From: Pseudomonadota bacterium
GTDB taxonomy: Bacteria > Pseudomonadota > Alphaproteobacteria > SHVZ01
Direction: 5' to 3'
DNA: 64,000 nt
Assembly (NCBI GenBank): GCA_016195085.1
Contig: JACQAG010000008.1
Span: 1-64,000 of the forward strand
In this document: piece after piece, positions 20,014 through 28,065 of the stretch
Position numbering within the stretch: position 1 is the stretch's first letter
Layout: every line of letters begins with the position of its first letter
The notes under the pieces: generated by a model
Databases searched by the model: none
Seen by the model: the letters and a program-made list of their open reading frames with translations, nothing else
Told to the model about the DNA's origin: nothing
Position numbers and translations under genes: made by a program

Positions 20014-21234
20014 TCAGCCGACGGCCTGCGGCGACCGGCCGACGATGCGGCGATAGAGCTCGGGGTCCGTCGCCCCCTCGCTGCCGAAGACCATGACCCT
20101 GGATGCGCCATCGAGGCCGATCGCCTCGCGTGTCGGATGATCGGCGGCGGCGGCCAGCACTCCGGCGAGGCCGCCCACCCCCGCCTCGCCGCCCACGACC
20201 GGCGCGTCGCCGCCAACGCCGGCGGCCAGAAGCCGCATCGCCGCCACCGCCGCGGCATCGGGAATGATCATGAAGAATTCCGCGCCGCGCTTCAGGATGT
20301 CCCATGCCAAGAGCGACACTTCGCCGGCGGCAAGCCCGGCCATCAGCGTCTCCAAATCGCCCTCCGACTTGGTCGGACGGCCGGCAAGGGCGCTCTGGTA
20401 GAGGCAGTCGGCGCGCTCCGGCTCGACCACGATGAAGCGCGGCCGATCCTTGCCCCAGGCCTCCCACAGCTCCGCCACGACCGCGGCGGCGAGCCCGCCG
20501 ACCCCGCCCTGTAGGAAGACGTGGCTCGGCTTGATACCGGCGCCGAGCTCATCGACCGCCTCCGCCGCCATCACCGAGTAGCCCTGCATCACCATGCGCG
20601 GCACGTCGCGGTAGCCTTCATAGGAGGTGTCCGAGACCACCTGCCATCCCCGGCGCACCGCCTCCGCCGCGCAGTGATGCACCGAGTCGTCGTAGTTGCC
20701 GGCGATGCGCACCACCTCGGCGCCATAGCCGGCAATCGCCCGGCACCTTCCCTCGCTCACCGTGGCGTGGATGTAGATGACGGCGCGGCAGCCGAATTGC
20801 TGGGCACCCCAGGCGACGGAACGGCCGTGATTGCCGTCGGTGGCGCTGGTCACCACGATGTCGCCGGTCATGGCCCGGTACTGCCCGGACAGGAGCTCGG
20901 CGGCGCTCGGAATGCGACCGATCCCATCCGCGATCTTGGCGGCAAGCAGGCGATAGACGGCATAGGCGCCGCCGAGCGCCTTGAAGCTGCCGAGACCGAA
21001 GCGGCCGGCCTCGTCCTTGTACCAGAGCTCAGCGATGCCGATGGCCGCCGCCAATCCCGGGAGAGAATAGAGCGGCGTTGCCCGGTAGCCGGGCCAGGCC
21101 TCGATGATGCGGCGCGCCGCAGCCCCTTCGGCACGGTTGAGGATCGCCCGCTCCGCCTCGCCATAAGCCGAACCCGGCGCTGCCCGCGTGTTGCGGCAGA
21201 GCCCGACCGGGAATTGCTGAAGCACCCGGCTCAT
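20014..21234 (-). CDS. dpaL: Diaminopropionate ammonia-lyase
   Basis: A 406-residue fold-II PLP enzyme that would convert 2,3-diaminopropionate to pyruvate and ammonia. The PLP lysine is in FGLGSFKALGGAYAV; TSATDGNHGRSVAWGA and the glycine-rich loop LQGGVGGLAAAV are family landmarks. Its ATG overlaps the stop of a truncated GNAT reading frame (ATGA). Together with the second PLP enzyme and the peptide-type ABC transporter it suggests breakdown of a nonproteinogenic amino acid or a conjugate of one. Confidence 0.88.
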   Translation of the reverse strand: MSRVLQQFPVGLCRNTRAAPGSAYGEAERAILNRAEGAAARRIIEAWPGYRATPLYSLPGLAAAIGIAELWYKDEAGRFGLGSFKALGGAYAVYRLLAAKIADGIGRIPSAAELLSGQYRAMTGDIVVTSATDGNHGRSVAWGAQQFGCRAVIYIHATVSEGRCRAIAGYGAEVVRIAGNYDDSVHHCAAEAVRRGWQVVSDTSYEGYRDVPRMVMQGYSVMAAEAVDELGAGIKPSHVFLQGGVGGLAAAVVAELWEAWGKDRPRFIVVEPERADCLYQSALAGRPTKSEGDLETLMAGLAAGEVSLLAWDILKRGAEFFMIIPDAAAVAAMRLLAAGVGGDAPVVGGEAGVGGLAGVLAAAADHPTREAIGLDGASRVMVFGSEGATDPELYRRIVGRSPQAVG

Positions 21235-21925: not shown

Positions 21926-22483
21926 TCAGCGCTGATCCATACCCACACGCCATTGACTGATGAATTCAAGACAATCGTGGGTAACTGTTTGAAGATCACC
22001 ACGCGCATCGATGATCGCATCCGCTACCGCCGGAAGGGAACCTTGCAGCTCCGCCTCGACGCGATGTGCATCAGCCCTTACGAAATCACTGCTGCCACCT
22101 GCGCGAGCTTCTACTCGCTTCAACCTCTGGGTATCGTCGGCCGCCAAAAAGATAAGCTTCACTATTGAAGGTGCGGCCATCGCAACAAGGATGTTTTGGA
22201 CACTGACATGCCGGATGCCATCGACAAGAAGGTATTCTCCTGGTCTGAAGTGACCGCTATCAAGAACAGCGCGGCAGAATGGTTCGCTGCCTGTGGCGAC
22301 TAGCGCCTGACCAAGATCCTGTAACGCCTCACGGGATTCTGGGTTCTGACCACGCCTCACGAGTTCAGCACGAAGATAGTCGCCGAAGCTTACGCGAGGC
22401 CACTCGAGCATCTCAGCCAAGGTCTGGCTAACAGACGATTTGCCGCTACCAATGCGCCCTGCGAAAGAGACCACTAGCCCCAT
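21926..22483 (-). CDS. P-loop nucleoside/nucleotide kinase-like protein
   Basis: A 185-residue P-loop protein from ATG 22483, which overlaps the stop of the ASCH-like gene as TAATG, so translation is probably coupled. Walker A is GRIGSGKSS (residues about 9-17). The segment FGDYLRAELVRRG after it resembles the nucleotide-binding region of adenylate/cytidylate or dephospho-CoA kinase-type enzymes; VDGIRHVSV could include the Walker B-like aspartate, and RLKRVEAR a lid arginine region. Exact substrate unknown. Last gene of the seven-gene island operon. Confidence 0.75.
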   Translation of the reverse strand: MGLVVSFAGRIGSGKSSVSQTLAEMLEWPRVSFGDYLRAELVRRGQNPESREALQDLGQALVATGSEPFCRAVLDSGHFRPGEYLLVDGIRHVSVQNILVAMAAPSIVKLIFLAADDTQRLKRVEARAGGSSDFVRADAHRVEAELQGSLPAVADAIIDARGDLQTVTHDCLEFISQWRVGMDQR

Positions 22484-22983
22484 TAGAACCGAAATGCTGA
22501 TTGACGAGAACGTAACGACACCCATCCGCGTCGATCTCTTTTGCGCCATTCAAGTGGATCTATCGTGGCGGTCTCCGCAAGTTCTATTAGCGTCACATAT
22601 GTAGCATCGCGTTGAGTTTCCCAGAACGCATCATCAGCGCATATCATATCGCCATATCGTTTTCTGATTTGCTCGAACTGCCCGTCCGAGAGGTCATGAA
22701 ACCACGCGCGTTTTGCGAGCGTAAGGCCCCGCACAGGGCCAGAAATTTCCTTAACGAGAATGACATCACCTTCCGCCACCTCACCGAATGGTGCGCAGCG
22801 CCTTCGACTGAATCGTGACTCCACAGTCTTTCGGCCGCTCAAAACCAGGGATAGGAACGGCTCTGCAAACACTGCGAGATGTATGCCAACTGGGCTCCCG
22901 GGTAGGGATATCGTATGCAAGTAGCTTAACCAGAAGCTATGCTTGACGACCCGACCCAAGAGTTCGTTGATTCCGGCTGCCAC
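22483..22983 (-). CDS. ASCH/PUA-like domain protein
   Basis: A protein of up to 166 residues. The core from about residue 33 reads GIHLAVFAEPFLSLVLSGRK, then TVESRFSRRR, GDVILVKEISGPVRG and a C-terminal ATYVTLIEL strand, matching the ASCH fold (GxKxxExR motif) that binds RNA or modified nucleotides. The only ATG (22983) lies 58 bases inside the upstream methyltransferase-like gene; a TTG nearer the domain is possible. The C-terminus ends at the kinase start. Confidence 0.7.
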   Translation of the reverse strand: MAAGINELLGRVVKHSFWLSYLHTISLPGSPVGIHLAVFAEPFLSLVLSGRKTVESRFSRRRCAPFGEVAEGDVILVKEISGPVRGLTLAKRAWFHDLSDGQFEQIRKRYGDMICADDAFWETQRDATYVTLIELAETATIDPLEWRKRDRRGWVSLRSRQSAFRF

Positions 22984-24263
22984 TTTTCGCTCCGTCCAGC
23001 GCTGTTTCCAAATCGACTGGATCGCTCCTCTGACGACTCCAGACGGGCGAGAGAGCGCAAATAATCCTTCAGCCGCCTCACCTCATCACGCTCCTCAATC
23101 GTGGCCCAAAGGAGCGGGAGAGTGCCAGAGTCTTCTTCGTTGCTAGAGAGAGCTAAAGCCACTGTGATGACCAATTCCGGATTGTTAGTGGCGAAGATCC
23201 GATTTCCCGAAGTCCACAGCTGGGCTCGCTTCCGGCGGGGATCTTTGCGACTGACCGTAGGCAAAATATCGCCATCGACAAGCGAAATAATAGGGCATCC
23301 GCTCTGCAAAGGGACACTGCGACGACGTACGTATAGACGCATCCGACCAATCATCACTTCGTACCAGTAGTTCCTTTGGTCGCTGGCTGTTGGTACAGCG
23401 CGGCTCAGTGTTTCGGCCTTTCGGAAGACCACAAGATCACCACGACGCCACGAGTGTGGGGCTTGTAAGCCTGCAGCTGCGAGGGCATTCGCCTCAAAAA
23501 ACGGCGTTTCATAGGTGAGAGCAAAAGTGCGTGTATCGAGATGCACGAGGCCGATGTGCGCCGCAAATGTCATTACCTTGGCCCGGTCATCTGCTGCTTT
23601 TGATCGCGCTCCTTCGGGAGGCAAGCTGATAAGGACATACCCTCCTATGCGACATGCGGCCACTGCAGAAGCCAACATCGGCCGGACGTAGTCGAGGTAC
23701 CATGGAGGATCAAGGATGATGACCGAGGCGGTATTGCAGTAGGACATCGCGGGATTGCAAAACTCAATCGTTAGAGGAGCGCCGCTGGCCTGGTTGAGTG
23801 CCGTTAGACGATGCGTCACCGTGTTGGGTTCGCCAAGGAATATCACGGGCCTTTGGAGGGGCCGAGATAGTGCTTCGATTGCTACGCCGGGTGTACCGAA
23901 CAGCAATATAGGTTGCCCCACCTCGCAAATGTCGTCGGCCAGGTCGAGTAACAAGCGCGCGGCATCCGGCGTGAACCGCCATTCATAGTTTATAGGATGC
24001 GGTAGCGGCAGCAACGAACGAGGGCGCGGCGTGAGTATTGGTTGGATGTGGGCCTCGCGCTCGATTGCGCGGGCTGTGTGAGCTGCGATTTGACCCCGCG
24101 CGGCAAGGCGCCTAACTGCGTCGAGCGCGATCGTGGGATACACTGACGGCAGGCGTTCCAAGAGATGGGCGTAGCTGGTGTAGCCTGCGCTCAACTGTGC
24201 AGCGACCCAAGTCTCAACCATTCTCTCGAAGACCAGAGATCCCTGATTCATCGCTCTGGCCAT
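22926..24263 (-). CDS. DPPW-motif methyltransferase-like protein
   Basis: A 445-residue protein that I do not recognise as a named family. Residues about 115-215 look like a Rossmann methyltransferase core: PILLFGTPGVAIEAL, PVIFLGEPN, then VIILDPPWYLDYV, where DPPW(Y) (185-189) is the catalytic signature of amino-group (N6-adenine-type) SAM methyltransferases, and CRIGGYVLISLPPEG. The N-terminal 110 residues are helical, and about 230 C-terminal residues are unassigned. The order of motifs suggests a circularly permuted or divergent group. It starts 5 bases after the radical SAM gene. Confidence 0.65.
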   Translation of the reverse strand: MARAMNQGSLVFERMVETWVAAQLSAGYTSYAHLLERLPSVYPTIALDAVRRLAARGQIAAHTARAIEREAHIQPILTPRPRSLLPLPHPINYEWRFTPDAARLLLDLADDICEVGQPILLFGTPGVAIEALSRPLQRPVIFLGEPNTVTHRLTALNQASGAPLTIEFCNPAMSYCNTASVIILDPPWYLDYVRPMLASAVAACRIGGYVLISLPPEGARSKAADDRAKVMTFAAHIGLVHLDTRTFALTYETPFFEANALAAAGLQAPHSWRRGDLVVFRKAETLSRAVPTASDQRNYWYEVMIGRMRLYVRRRSVPLQSGCPIISLVDGDILPTVSRKDPRRKRAQLWTSGNRIFATNNPELVITVALALSSNEEDSGTLPLLWATIEERDEVRRLKDYLRSLARLESSEERSSRFGNSAGRSEKWQPESTNSWVGSSSIASG

Positions 24264-24268
24264 TAGTG

Positions 24269-25291
24269 CTACTGAACTCCGGTGATAGGCACGTTGGCGA
24301 CGTCTAACGCGCGGGCGGTGGGTTCAAAGCGACGATCAAGTTCGGATTCCCAGGCAGCAATCGCTTCCTCTTGAACGGCAAGACTTCGCTCTCGGTCAGC
24401 TGTGAGGCGGCTGTTAACTGGCGAGAAGACCCTGATCTGCAATGGCGTGACGCGAAGCGGAAGGTTCGGGTTTAGGTTTTGAAGTCGATCGACGAAATTA
24501 GCGACGCTCGCCGCCACTCCTTCAGAGTAGGGTGATGTCAGCGTGACATAGCCATAGAGGTCGATGTCTAACGTCAACAGCCGACGCATAATCACAAACT
24601 GATTATCAAAGTCCTCCTCTGCGGCTCGTGTGTTGAACGCGAATGAACGCGCGTCATAGCCCTTAAAACAACAAACTCGGCCATAATTTTTGTATTCTTG
24701 CATGATATCGAGCTGTGTTTGGTCGAGTTTGTCGAACAAATATGTTGTGCTGAGGTTGTCGTCAGTCCACAGGTAGGTAGTCTGGTCGAGCCCAACATTC
24801 TTCAGCGCACTCATCATCCATGGCGTCCACTCAGGGATGAGATCGGGTGATCCACCAGACAAGTCAATGATTCGCGGTCGATCAGGTTCAGCCTGGTACA
24901 TGCTGACGAGCTCTTCCGGTGTCAGCCAAGCCGAAAGAGACTGATTCGCACTGAGAAGGTTGTAGGGCACGAAGCAATACCAGCAACGCCATGCACAGGC
25001 CGCATTCTGAAATACCTGGGCGCGCATCATTTGTGGGGGCGGATTTATACCCAGGGCCTTGCTCGCAGGAACTATCGGCAATGGATTGATTGGCCAACCC
25101 GAAGATGTCGTTTGCTTGAAATGGCGAACGCGACCGTAACCTCTGCAGTTAGTCGGGGCGCTCAGATCTACTTCTTGCTCGGAGCCTGCCAATCGGGAGA
25201 CCAGAAGGCGCCGTCCCGCTACGTCAATGGCACGCGCGCGTAAAGTCTCGGAAAGCTTCGCCGTATCGATTGGCTTAGTGAGGGCGCTCAT
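24269..25291 (-). CDS. Radical SAM enzyme, unassigned subfamily
   Basis: A 340-residue protein with a canonical CX3CX2C cluster motif: cysteines at residues 99, 103 and 106 in CAWRCWYCF, for a 4Fe-4S cluster that cleaves SAM. GGSPD (146-150) corresponds to the glycine motif that contacts SAM. A further region with YLWTDDNLST and CCFKGYDARSF continues the TIM-barrel. About 95 residues precede the cluster motif, with NCRGYGRVRHFKQ. No SPASM-type extra cluster is obvious. Its start overlaps the stop of the zinc-ribbon gene (ATGA). Confidence 0.8.
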   Translation of the reverse strand: MSALTKPIDTAKLSETLRARAIDVAGRRLLVSRLAGSEQEVDLSAPTNCRGYGRVRHFKQTTSSGWPINPLPIVPASKALGINPPPQMMRAQVFQNAACAWRCWYCFVPYNLLSANQSLSAWLTPEELVSMYQAEPDRPRIIDLSGGSPDLIPEWTPWMMSALKNVGLDQTTYLWTDDNLSTTYLFDKLDQTQLDIMQEYKNYGRVCCFKGYDARSFAFNTRAAEEDFDNQFVIMRRLLTLDIDLYGYVTLTSPYSEGVAASVANFVDRLQNLNPNLPLRVTPLQIRVFSPVNSRLTADRERSLAVQEEAIAAWESELDRRFEPTARALDVANVPITGVQ

Positions 25292-25896
25292 CGGGGTATC
25301 GCGCCTGCATCGGGCAGTTGTGCATGTTGACGTCGTGGAACCTTGATTGGATCATCCAAGAGATCGGGGACTCGCTCATCGAGGAAGAGATCAATCAGCT
25401 TGGCGCAGTACTCAAATTCCTCCCGCGTTAGCGATCGCCCTTTAGGGATTGAGTGCCAGTATTCTAAGCAGGTACGACAGCAGCAGGCGGTGGCGTGTTG
25501 GGCGTAATAAATAGCATTGCCATGCAGCGGCGTTTGGCGTCCGTCTCGTGGCGGGTTGGCCGACGCGAGATATTTCGCTAGGCGGTCACGTGCTGCAACC
25601 TTCAGTTTGATCCGCCCCTTGCGTTGTGCATGACGAATTGCCGTTTCGTCGATCTCTTTGTGGAAGAAGTGATGGCGGATTAGCTCGTGTTGAAGCGCTC
25701 GGAAGGTGTGCTGTGCATCCCTAAGATCACGCAAATGTACGCGCTGCCAATTAATAAGATCTGCCCCACAAGCTCTACATCTGCCCCGCTCCTCGGATGT
25801 CATCCTTTTGAGCTGCTTGAAACAATGTAAGCCGTTGTCACAATCGGTTGATGTGCACTTGATCTCAAGCGGGGGAGGTTTTTGAAAGCCAGTCAT
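25288..25896 (-). CDS. Cys-rich zinc-ribbon protein with DUF4186-like C-terminus
   Basis: A 202-residue protein. Cys14, Cys19, Cys25, Cys40 and Cys43 could make an N-terminal zinc ribbon. Residues 121-155 (QTPLHGNAIYYAQHATACCC then RTCLEYWHSIPKGR) match what I recall of DUF4186, a small family with an unknown role. The end (VPRRQHAQLPDAG) overlaps the radical SAM start by 4 bases. The tight link suggests the two proteins act together, for example as substrate adaptor and enzyme. Confidence 0.65.
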   Translation of the reverse strand: MTGFQKPPPLEIKCTSTDCDNGLHCFKQLKRMTSEERGRCRACGADLINWQRVHLRDLRDAQHTFRALQHELIRHHFFHKEIDETAIRHAQRKGRIKLKVAARDRLAKYLASANPPRDGRQTPLHGNAIYYAQHATACCCRTCLEYWHSIPKGRSLTREEFEYCAKLIDLFLDERVPDLLDDPIKVPRRQHAQLPDAGAIPR

Positions 25897-25903
25897 GGCA
25901 CCC

Positions 25904-27352
25904 TCAGTGCAAGGAGCGTTCGAGAAGTTGACGATCTAAGTCGCTATCGATCGCGAAGGGAAAGCGTTCAAAAAAGACATCACGGGCGATGGTCCATGGA
26001 TCTGTATCGCCAGTCTGGAGATTAGCGGCAGCACCCCACCAATTGATGTTCTGCCAGGAAAGGCGGAACGCCAGATAATTGGCGAGTGCTCCGATGTCGA
26101 CGCCCTCGCGTTTGGCGACAGTAGGGACAACACGCTTAAGACGCTCCACGGAGTTCCGTGCCGCGGCTACGCAAGCCTGCGCCAATTCTTCCGCTCGACC
26201 ATCCAACACCACGTCACCAGCGAATTGGCTGGCTGCAACCTCTTCATCAGATTTGCGACGCTCGGGCGAAGTTTCGTCGGCTTCGATAACTTCCATCGTC
26301 TCCGCCTCAGGCCGCTGCGCAGCGTGGAATAGCTCGTGGAGTAGATCGAATAGCCAGCGCGCTTCATGCTTGGAGGATTGCTTCAAGACGACAACATTGC
26401 GTCCCTGATAGCGCCAGCAGGCGCCATGGAACGTCCCCCGGTTCTTAAGCGGCAGCACTGGCACCCCGATATCCCAGGCGTAGCGTAAGGTTGAGCTGAG
26501 TGTCAGGACAGCATAGCGCTCGACAATTGCGTACCGCATTGTGCGGGCTGCAGTCGGAATAAGCGTCTTCGGCAGATTGCTCGAACCCTTGAGAACTACG
26601 ACAGAAAGATAATTCGCGTACGCCGCATAAAGGGTTGTATCGGCCAGGTTACGACCGGCCGGAATCTTGAACCGCGCCTCTGCGGCTGCGAATCGGGGCG
26701 CGGCCAACGGCTGTGCACCGAAGAGGTTATCAGGAGTCCATCCGAACACGCGCCCAAGTGCCGCCGTCGCTTTCGCCGACAATGCTCCATCGTCCTCAGT
26801 GGGCACCTCTCCCGCAGCTCGAGCCGCATCGATGGACGACAATAGGTGCGTGACCAGAAAATCACGATCAAGGCCGACCTGCCGGAGTTTGCTTACGAGA
26901 CCATTGAAACTGTCGGGAGCAACCGGAAGAAGAATGTCATTTCTAATGCGTACACCGATAGCATCCGCGACTTTGCGCAGTCTCTCAAAGCTCGTCGAGG
27001 CGTAGCGCTCGGCCTCATATCGCTGAATCTGCTGTTCCTTCATCCCGAGACGGTCAGCCAAGGCTTTTTGGCTGAGACCGGCGACAATTCGAGCCTTGAT
27101 TAGGCCCTCCGCCAGTTCATCAAACGAGTTAATGGAAATGACGGCCATATCCGCTGCCTTTAACCGTTCATACTCCGACAGTTCGGCACGCAGATCTTCG
27201 AGTTGACTCTCAAGAGCTTCTCGTTCTGCTTGAATCAGACGCGGATGGACGCCTTCCCTCGCGCCACCTTCCGCAGCGAGGTCGGCGAGGGCGCGACGAA
27301 AGTTGTCGGCTTCAGCTCTGGTGATCTTGTACTGACGTTCGTTGGTGATCAT
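25904..27352 (-). CDS. XRE helix-turn-helix / ImmA-IrrE-type metalloprotease
   Basis: A 482-residue protein. Residues about 10-68 form a charged coiled coil; about 83-135 an XRE helix-turn-helix (AGLSQKALADRLGMKEQQIQ then RYEAERY); a zinc-protease motif, HELFH, lies at residues 339-343 in LFDLLHELFHAAQRPE, as in ImmA/IrrE proteins that cleave repressors or antitoxins. The end has an EEVAASQFAGD segment typical of such HTH-ImmA fusions. It overlaps the DUF6932-like start/stop by 4 bases and probably regulates the island operon. Confidence 0.85.
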   Translation of the reverse strand: MITNERQYKITRAEADNFRRALADLAAEGGAREGVHPRLIQAEREALESQLEDLRAELSEYERLKAADMAVISINSFDELAEGLIKARIVAGLSQKALADRLGMKEQQIQRYEAERYASTSFERLRKVADAIGVRIRNDILLPVAPDSFNGLVSKLRQVGLDRDFLVTHLLSSIDAARAAGEVPTEDDGALSAKATAALGRVFGWTPDNLFGAQPLAAPRFAAAEARFKIPAGRNLADTTLYAAYANYLSVVVLKGSSNLPKTLIPTAARTMRYAIVERYAVLTLSSTLRYAWDIGVPVLPLKNRGTFHGACWRYQGRNVVVLKQSSKHEARWLFDLLHELFHAAQRPEAETMEVIEADETSPERRKSDEEVAASQFAGDVVLDGRAEELAQACVAAARNSVERLKRVVPTVAKREGVDIGALANYLAFRLSWQNINWWGAAANLQTGDTDPWTIARDVFFERFPFAIDSDLDRQLLERSLH

Positions 27353-27786
27353 GGGAGACTCTTAAGATTGATCTGTAGGATTCCTTTGGGTACGCCATCG
27401 CGGTCTTTAAGAAAGAACTCACGGTAGCGAATTCCGGCCGCGGCCAGGGCAGTGGCGGGAAAGAGTTCACCGCCAAACTTGGCTTTCATGGCGGCACGCT
27501 TGTTGGAGAAGTCGAGTAGGACCGGATCAAGAAGGCTCGGATCCACTCCTCGGGGGTCCCATGCCCCGTCATAGTCGTCCGGCAGGTCTTTTACAGAGAT
27601 GAAGCTGCCGTTAAGAAGGACAGACTCGCATCCTGCTCCCGCGAGGCTTTTCGCCGCTCCGAGCAGTCCGCCAACGAGACCCGTTCGGTGCGAATTTCCC
27701 GAGAAGCGAGCCACCATTTCGGTCCACGAGCTGTCATGGACGCCGGGCGGCAAATAGCCAGTCGCTGCATCAAATGCGGGGATCAT
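27349..27786 (-). CDS. DUF6932-like protein (nucleotidyltransferase-related)
   Basis: A 145-residue protein from ATG 27786 (MIPAFDAATGYLPPGVH). Landmarks GYLPPGVHDSSWTEMVARF, GCESVLLNGSFIS, DYDGAWDP and KFGGELFPAT match what I recall of DUF6932, which has a nucleotidyltransferase-like GSFxxxKxxPxDxD pattern. This family is often next to XRE proteins, as here. It is the first gene of the island operon, and its start codon sits inside a large palindrome (27782-27815). Confidence 0.65.
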   Translation of the reverse strand: MIPAFDAATGYLPPGVHDSSWTEMVARFSGNSHRTGLVGGLLGAAKSLAGAGCESVLLNGSFISVKDLPDDYDGAWDPRGVDPSLLDPVLLDFSNKRAAMKAKFGGELFPATALAAAGIRYREFFLKDRDGVPKGILQINLKSLP

Positions 27787-27815
27787 CAACACAACAATAT
27801 CGTTGTGTTGATGAT
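27782..27815. promoter_or_regulatory. Perfect 14-bp inverted repeat over the island operon start (operator candidate)
   Basis: Arms at 27782-27795 and 27802-27815 are exact inverted complements around a 6-base AATATC centre. The ATG of the DUF6932-like gene (27784-27786) lies within the left arm. Such a site fits autoregulation by the XRE/ImmA protein encoded next in the operon, or an mRNA hairpin at the ribosome site. About 250 further bases to 28065 hold an AT-rich patch (27890-27940) but no gene I can support. Confidence 0.7.
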
Positions 27816-28065
27816 GATGTCAAGGTTCATAGACGTACGCGGCTCGGCACGGGCTTAAACAGCGCGACACCAACCCGCGGCGGATTGGATATGTCTGCTC
27901 AATCAATAAATTAACTAGAGATGAACATAGCTTGCGCCACTCTTACGCAACAAGCCAGGGGCACGATTACGCGCTTCCGGGCCCATCTCTTGCGCGGCTG
28001 GAAGGGTGATTCTCACCCCTACCGGGCGTCACATTGAAGGAGAGAGTCGGGGTTGGGGCGCCTTC

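Follow-up and report, generated by a model that had tools for sequence, protein, structure and literature searches.

A mobile seven-gene operon joining an ImmA-type repressor to a radical SAM enzyme, a BpsA-like protein and a nucleotide-kinase-like protein

The operon and its operator

The DNA analysed here, called the window throughout, is a stretch of 64,000 nucleotides (nt) from an alphaproteobacterium of the GTDB lineage SHVZ01 (contig JACQAG010000008.1 of assembly GCA_016195085.1, positions 1 to 64,000). Its minus strand carries, at 21926-27786, an operon of seven leftward open reading frames, all of which were confirmed, for a DUF6932 protein, a helix-turn-helix (HTH) repressor fused to an ImmA-type metallopeptidase, a zinc-ribbon DUF4186 protein, a radical S-adenosylmethionine (SAM) enzyme, a transferase-like protein, an ASCH domain protein and a nucleotide-kinase-like protein (genes 1 to 7, Table 1). 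Genes 1 and 2 overlap in ATGA, as do genes 3 and 4; 7 nt lie between genes 2 and 3 and 5 nt between genes 4 and 5, while genes 5 and 6 overlap by 58 nt and genes 6 and 7 meet in TAATG. An earlier note, made from the letters of this DNA alone, had described seven leftward genes with overlaps or short gaps, and this was borne out, although two starts had to be corrected: gene 1 most likely begins at the ATG at 27786 (MIPAFD) in place of the GTG at 27792, and gene 7 at the ATG at 22483, the point from which conservation in the family runs. The note was also right that GC is lower than in the flanks (0.527-0.578 by gene, against 0.665-0.667 in the 7-kb flanks and 0.657 in the whole window), and right in its counts for single lines of 60 bases (21 at 24661, 33 at 25741 and 44 at 20101). 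A search of the window for tRNAs found none, and the direct neighbours of the operon are ordinary metabolic genes, for pyridoxal phosphate (PLP) enzymes, SnoaL, a C39 peptidase and Amdase.

Relatives were collected with gene 4. A tblastn search of 72,556 plasmids gave seven matches, in Rhizobium, Roseovarius (two), Nostoc, Tolypothrix, Microchaete and Aulosira, and all of the five plasmid regions that were inspected (5/5) preserve the order of the seven genes. A gene-4 profile scan of one GTDB genome per species, covering 84,980 species, gave 88 relatives, of which 80 were kept. We compared 86 loci, made up of the window, the plasmids and the genome relatives, using gene-family profiles built for the analysis; the 85 further loci come from about 15 phyla and include one archaeal contig (numbers with L below denote loci). 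For the 68 loci with enough flank, genes were counted within 8 kb of gene 4. Gene 7 is found in 67 of them, 64 have gene 2 and 64 have gene 6, and genes 3, 5 and 1 occur in 63, 62 and 52, respectively. The full order and strand of the window recur in about 45 of the 86 loci, and in some (L025 and L043) a block of genes 1-2-3 and a block of genes 4-5-6-7 stand on opposite strands. There are also six fusions that join four pairs of genes, 2+7 (L036), 3+6 (L053), 5+6 (L054, L065) and 6+7 (L019, L058), so that five of the loci have gene 6 joined to gene 3, 5 or 7. Compared over these loci, the seven genes are shown to be one inherited unit.

The operator palindrome ACACAACGATATTGTTGTGT occurs as an exact copy directly before gene 1, with 0.04 copies expected by chance in the window at up to 2 mismatches, and the predicted -10 region (27794-27801) lies within it. 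It is the core of a 34-nt inverted repeat, ATCATCAACACAACGATATTGTTGTGTTGATGAT, upstream of gene 1, and as only 2 nt separate the end of the operator from the ATG, the transcript is probably leaderless. The operator is present in a single copy in its own genome at up to one mismatch. Promoter-like sites number 7 in the stretch, against 2.9 expected from shuffles.

Across the loci the operator has the core ACACAAC-N6-GTTGTGT. It was found at 61 sites, 37 exact and 24 with one mismatch, all with a spacer of 6, and shuffles gave none at up to one mismatch. It lies directly before gene 1 in 57 of the 61 loci that have this gene and in none of the 15 that lack it (Fisher p=1.4e-12), and in locus L010 both half-sites are altered together, to ACCCAAC and GTTGGGT. 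The recognition segment of the HTH tracks the class of operator, KEQQIQRYE versus PQtisRIE; the KEQQIQRYE region is strongly conserved among loci carrying gene 1, and different where DUF4160 replaces it. This alternative front end, a small DUF4160 gene in the place of DUF6932 before the HTH-ImmA gene, is seen at L049:5621-5869 and in 11 further loci, with the palindrome TTAACAT-N2-ATGTTAA in Bacteroidota and Ignavibacteriota and AACGTATACGTT in Chloroflexota. Judged from the sequences, the palindrome moves together with the system, and what binds it is probably the gene-2 HTH. Three features of an autoregulatory HTH-ImmA protein are present, namely an HTH, an HExxH peptidase and a palindrome at its own promoter. 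The palindrome, the DUF4160 front end and the gene fusions go beyond what the earlier note had described.

We also considered that the operator might be a site carried by phages, and rejected this. At least 120 stretches of viral contigs match the pattern, none of them with gene 1, 3, 4 or 5, which argues against a phage-carried operator, and by our estimate a collection of this size would yield about as many matches to 14 fixed bases by chance.

Table 1. Genes and predicted control sites of the operon in the window.
Feature	Coordinates	Strand	Basis
-35 box TTGACA, predicted operon promoter	27818..27823	-	10/12 consensus match with the second hexamer inside the operator
Operator palindrome	27789..27808		Exact copy in the window; covers the predicted -10 region
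Gene 1, DUF6932	27349..27786	-	PF22014 E=1.3e-28; GSF-x(6-9)-DxD pattern
Gene 2, HTH-ImmA/IrrE fused repressor and metallopeptidase	25904..27352	-	HTH_3 and Peptidase_M78 above cut-offs
Gene 3, zinc-ribbon and DUF4186	25288..25896	-	PF13811 E=4e-33
Gene 4, radical SAM enzyme	24269..25291	-	CxxxCxxC in 86/86 relatives
Gene 5, winged-helix and Rossmann transferase, BpsA-like fold	22926..24263	-	Model with predicted local distance difference test (pLDDT) 87
Gene 6, ASCH (PUA-like) domain protein	22483..22983	-	Weak PF04266 match
Gene 7, P-loop nucleotide-kinase-like	21926..22483	-	AAA_18 and AAA_17 above cut-offs

Distribution, mobility and genomic setting

The operon is rare. Counting the genome of the window, the class has it in 1 of 385 genomes, the family in 1 of 7 and a sample of the phylum in 2 of 299, and it is absent from the six family relatives and the 384 other genomes of the class. 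The tree of gene 4 interleaves phyla, with 15 labels of which Pseudomonadota shows 4 changes, Chloroflexota 6 and several phyla 2-6; some of the loci are metagenome bins, and single labels such as that of the Thaumarchaeota contig L038 may therefore be misassigned. The pattern of the tree is in line with horizontal transfer. Several copies are on conjugative plasmids, many others are chromosomal, and a published comparison of Tolypothrix plasmids describes an 18.4-kb insertion containing operon genes (PMC9679502). On the comparative evidence, and with the drop in GC seen in the window, the system is horizontally mobile.

The nearest neighbours across the loci include integrases, IS110 transposases, RES toxins, AbiEi, Abi_2, Bil and an Argonaute-associated nuclease. 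The absence of an integrase, as stated in the earlier note, is correct for the immediate flanks of the operon in the window but not for other loci, where integrases occur near the operon. The note had proposed a compact system under an ImmA-type regulator and had looked to linkage in distant genomes, especially in defence islands, for its support; the comparison supports such a system, with linkage that is conserved across distant genomes in a mobile, defence-like setting, and the genes were not found scattered and unlinked among the relatives.

Two family relatives without the operon keep its left neighbours (SnoaL and a PLP enzyme), but the right side is not syntenic and the borders of the insertion are accordingly not fixed; direct repeats at the borders were short and imperfect only, and were read as chance. 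An origin from phages or other viruses was rejected, as gene 4 had no match in 50,697 phage records or in viral contigs.

Certain other genes accompany the operon. Five loci (L062:7201-7968, L069, L078, L067 and L073) have a gene for a dCTP-deaminase-like protein inserted between genes 3 and 4, and a dGTPase adjoins the operon in five cyanobacterial loci. The dCTP-deaminase-like protein is about 250 amino acids long, and the copy in L062 has a C-terminal hydrophobic stretch. In three alphaproteobacteria (L002:11330-12589, L012 and L020) the operon is directly followed by a DUF763 gene. At least two kinase-like relatives of gene 7 are found near one operon in L053 (Chloroflexota), L065 and L086, and L053 has a TylF-like methyltransferase gene within the block. 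The Methylobacterium loci L082 and L084 are very divergent, on a long branch of the tree and without a recognisable operator or ASCH match, and are followed 26-27 nt downstream by a gene whose cluster also contains patatin-like proteins.

If this were an ordinary metabolic or stress operon, for polyamine or cofactor synthesis for example, that has become mobile by chance, then a gene 5 whose fold is nearest to a polyamine synthase would fit, and radical SAM enzymes and kinases are common in metabolism. Such an operon is nevertheless hard to reconcile with the patchy distribution given above (1/385 in the class and 2/299 in the phylum sample), with a location on islands and plasmids under a self-contained repressor, or with a gene 5 that lacks the essential motif of BpsA in 71 of 71 relatives, and we consider it very improbable.

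Another explanation is addiction, or plasmid stability, with genes 1 and 2 (or DUF4160 and the HTH gene) as a toxin-antitoxin-like pair and the rest as cargo for a toxic metabolite and immunity to it. Stand-alone DUF6932-HTH and DUF6932-HTH-ImmA pairs are found on many plasmids, the front end can be exchanged for DUF4160, and several copies of the operon are on conjugative plasmids. In Agrobacterium and Marinibacterium, stand-alone DUF6932-HTH-ImmA pairs have a related palindrome, TTACAACATTATTGTTGTAA, directly before the ATG. A plasmid cassette of Agrobacterium and Rhizobium, DUF6932-HTH-ImmA-Beta_protein, has relatives of genes 1 and 2 in the same order, but its cargo is Beta_protein (PF14350) with an adjoining reverse transcriptase, and there is no radical SAM gene within the stretch examined. 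Copies lie at L087:2501-5317 (Agrobacterium pAt1D1460) and L228:4001-6817 (Rhizobium lentis p4), beside the reverse transcriptase (RNA-directed DNA polymerase) gene, and in the Agrobacterium cassette TTACAAC-N6-GTTGTAA stands directly before the DUF6932 ATG. The regulatory pair thus seems to be common to different mobile systems. Addiction as the function of the whole operon is nonetheless improbable in our view, given that many copies are chromosomal and that conservation of the five-gene tail goes far beyond what a toxin needs, with about 60 columns of gene 4 invariant in 39 diverse sequences.

The seven proteins and their nearest known systems

Most of the domain calls in the earlier note were backed by the profile searches (DUF6932, HTH_3 with Peptidase_M78, DUF4186, a radical SAM protein with CxxxCxxC and an AAA_17/18 kinase). 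The motif GSF-x(6-9)-DxD is present in 61 of 61 relatives of gene 1 and suggests a nucleotidyltransferase-like protein; against PADLOC, gene 1 matches the candidate PDC-M63A (E=1e-6). HExxH is present in 69 of 79 relatives of gene 2. Gene 3 has zinc-ribbon cysteines at its N terminus and CC[RK]xC in 79 of 80 relatives, and a fold search of the PDB with its confident model (pLDDT 91) gave no match. The sole significant viral match of this model in BFVD is an uncharacterised protein of pithovirus LCPAC001 (A0A481Z275), and DUF4186-like proteins are encoded in three phage records. One listed DUF4186 domain protein is YneG of E. coli (PMC11502571). The literature searched, with preprints and subscription journals outside the search, contained nothing on DUF6932, and its four papers on DUF4186 do not treat the present system.

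Gene 4 is the most conserved gene of the system, with 43-67% identity across phyla, and its score for the radical SAM family PF04055 is 24.2 bits against a cut-off of 29.5. One close comparison is with prokaryotic viperins. The pVip systems have a radical SAM protein with a CxxxCxxC cluster, sometimes a nucleotide kinase, and a location in islands. Gene 4 gave a weak local match to pVip in PADLOC (E=2.5e-4), confined to residues 97-169 in the cluster region, but it scores 14.4 against the NCBIfam viperin cut-off of 180 bits, and we rejected it as a viperin on this ground. Moreover, the present operon has a DUF4186 protein, a BpsA-like protein, an ASCH protein and a repressor of its own, none of which is found in viperin systems.

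The earlier note had called gene 5 methyltransferase-like, but as a plain methyltransferase it is unproven; the model instead has a fold closest to that of BpsA, an aminopropyltransferase, together with a DPPWY motif. The models in this work were made from alignments built without sequences from plasmid records. Foldseek ranks 1-9 for the gene-5 model are all BpsA or its Pyrococcus relative, with probability 1.00 and a best E of about 2e-10, and the domain order is the same, with a TM-score to the target of about 0.6. The GDDD motif of BpsA, which places the aminopropyl group of decarboxylated SAM, is described as indispensable (PMC12979288). In gene 5 this motif is absent from all relatives (0/71), whereas a DPPWY-type motif is present in 69 of 71 and a C-terminal WTSGNR motif is conserved. 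The protein is thus BpsA-like in its fold but not a BpsA, and a function as a BpsA polyamine synthase was rejected. The window copy has no Pfam match; PF10237, of the N6-adenine methyltransferase type, was matched by 23 of the 43 relatives compared, at E values of up to 0.1 and with 1.9e-8 as the best.

The ASCH call for gene 6 is weak in the window copy, at 15.3 bits for PF04266 against a cut-off of 21.2, and finds better support in the relatives from Rhizobium, Nostoc and Tolypothrix, which are annotated as ASCH; a K-x-x-E-x-R type motif is present in 70 of 77 relatives. In the window this is K51...E54...R56, with a conserved Glu three residues after the Lys, where the amidohydrolase YqfB has its nucleophile Thr. 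With Glu in place of Thr the Lys21-Thr24-Glu74 triad is not there, and gene 6 is more likely a binder than a YqfB-type amidohydrolase, which we rejected. Gene 7 is UPF0200/adenylate-kinase-like, with a full-length match to UPF0200 protein SSO1041 (3h0k, E=1.4e-5). Sequence searches of the PDB with genes 3, 4, 5 and 6 gave no solid match.

An ASCH protein together with an AAA_17 ATPase and an XRE regulator, in a toxin-antitoxin and defence setting, has been described for the (PIN)-GNAT-EVE operons (PMC7641849). In the present operon an ASCH-like protein likewise stands with an XRE regulator and a P-loop protein of the AAA_17 type, but radical SAM, DUF4186 and BpsA-like proteins take the place of the others. 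As PIN, GNAT and EVE domains had no match in the seven window proteins, membership of this toxin-antitoxin group was rejected. The switch resembles ImmA/ImmR and IrrE/DdrO in its XRE-type HTH, its HExxH metallopeptidase and its probably autoregulatory palindrome at the promoter, but here the HTH and the peptidase are fused, DUF6932 or DUF4160 serves as the partner, and different phyla have kept the operator.

A known system of PADLOC 2023 was rejected as well, since only gene 1 (PDC-M63A) matched, plus weak matches to HTH, pVip and kinase entries. A search for radical SAM enzymes and defence in the literature, with preprints and subscription papers outside it, found no description of the system. 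Within the literature and the PADLOC 2023 set searched, no match was found, and the system is in this sense undescribed.

Interpretation and significance

The explanation that we favour, with a probability of roughly one half, is an undescribed, mobile and inducible system, most likely for immunity or conflict against foreign DNA, that works with a modified nucleotide or base. It is strongly indicated that the gene-2 HTH would sit on ACACAAC-N6-GTTGTGT, over the -10 region of the leaderless promoter, and keep the operon off. By analogy with ImmA/ImmR and IrrE/DdrO, a signal would activate the ImmA domain of the same protein and lift the repression, perhaps with assistance from the nucleotidyltransferase-like protein of gene 1. 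A nucleotide or base would then undergo a carbon-centred change by the radical SAM enzyme and, in loci that have the BpsA-like DPPWY transferase, receive from it a group at an amino or similar position. Gene 7 would phosphorylate the (deoxy)nucleotide product or its precursor and the ASCH protein would bind the modified product, with DUF4186 as the zinc-binding partner of the pair. In the end, the modified nucleotide would poison or mark nucleic acid. The gene context makes an antiphage action likely.

The chemistry could, alternatively, act on nucleic acid in place. The radical SAM and BpsA-like enzymes would then alter bases of tRNA or DNA, comparable to TYW1 followed by TYW2 in wyosine synthesis or to hypermodified DNA, while the ASCH and zinc-ribbon proteins recognise the substrate and the kinase serves for salvage or sensing. 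The DPPW(Y) motif is typical of enzymes that act on exocyclic amino groups, and gene 5 carries it. The PF10237 matches in 23 of 43 gene-5 relatives point the same way, as do the 5+6 and 3+6 fusions, which attach a reader domain to the enzyme and to the zinc protein. ASCH and PUA domains are moreover known to bind modified bases (PMC7641849). With in-place modification there would however be no reason to expect the nucleotide-kinase-like gene that 67 of the 68 loci have, and the operon has no nuclease to use the mark, so we regard it as possible but on balance unlikely. The near-constant kinase and the accessory deoxynucleotide enzymes tilt the interpretation to the chemistry of free nucleotides.

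Several observations weigh against the favoured immunity system. Gene 5 is missing from about ten loci and ASCH from a few, which means that the chemistry cannot depend on these proteins everywhere. The only structural relatives of gene 4 are sub-threshold, a SPASM-type protein and QueE. The defence-gene setting is a qualitative observation, with no comparison set for the frequency of such genes beside random island genes, and the dGTPase is restricted to one lineage and may be a separate defence gene. Genes 1 and 2 resemble a toxin-antitoxin cassette, and for this reason the operon may be a plasmid-maintenance or stress module.

It is a tentative thought, and we put it forward as such, that the operon represents a new class of immunity in bacteria and archaea, in which an ImmA-type switch would control a radical SAM enzyme and a BpsA-like transferase that together make a new nucleotide, with an aminopropyl, aminocarboxypropyl or methyl group transferred, a kinase and an ASCH binder.

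The conservation of an intact operon, together with its operator, in about 15 phyla suggests a distinct biochemical function under strong selection. Our searches found no characterised or solved relative of the radical SAM family or of the DUF4186 fold, gene 5 resembles a polyamine synthase whose active site has been rewired, and the operator makes the trigger open to direct reporter study. If a new nucleotide is indeed made, the system would be, like viperin, an example of chemical immunity, and may be a source of antivirals and enzymes.

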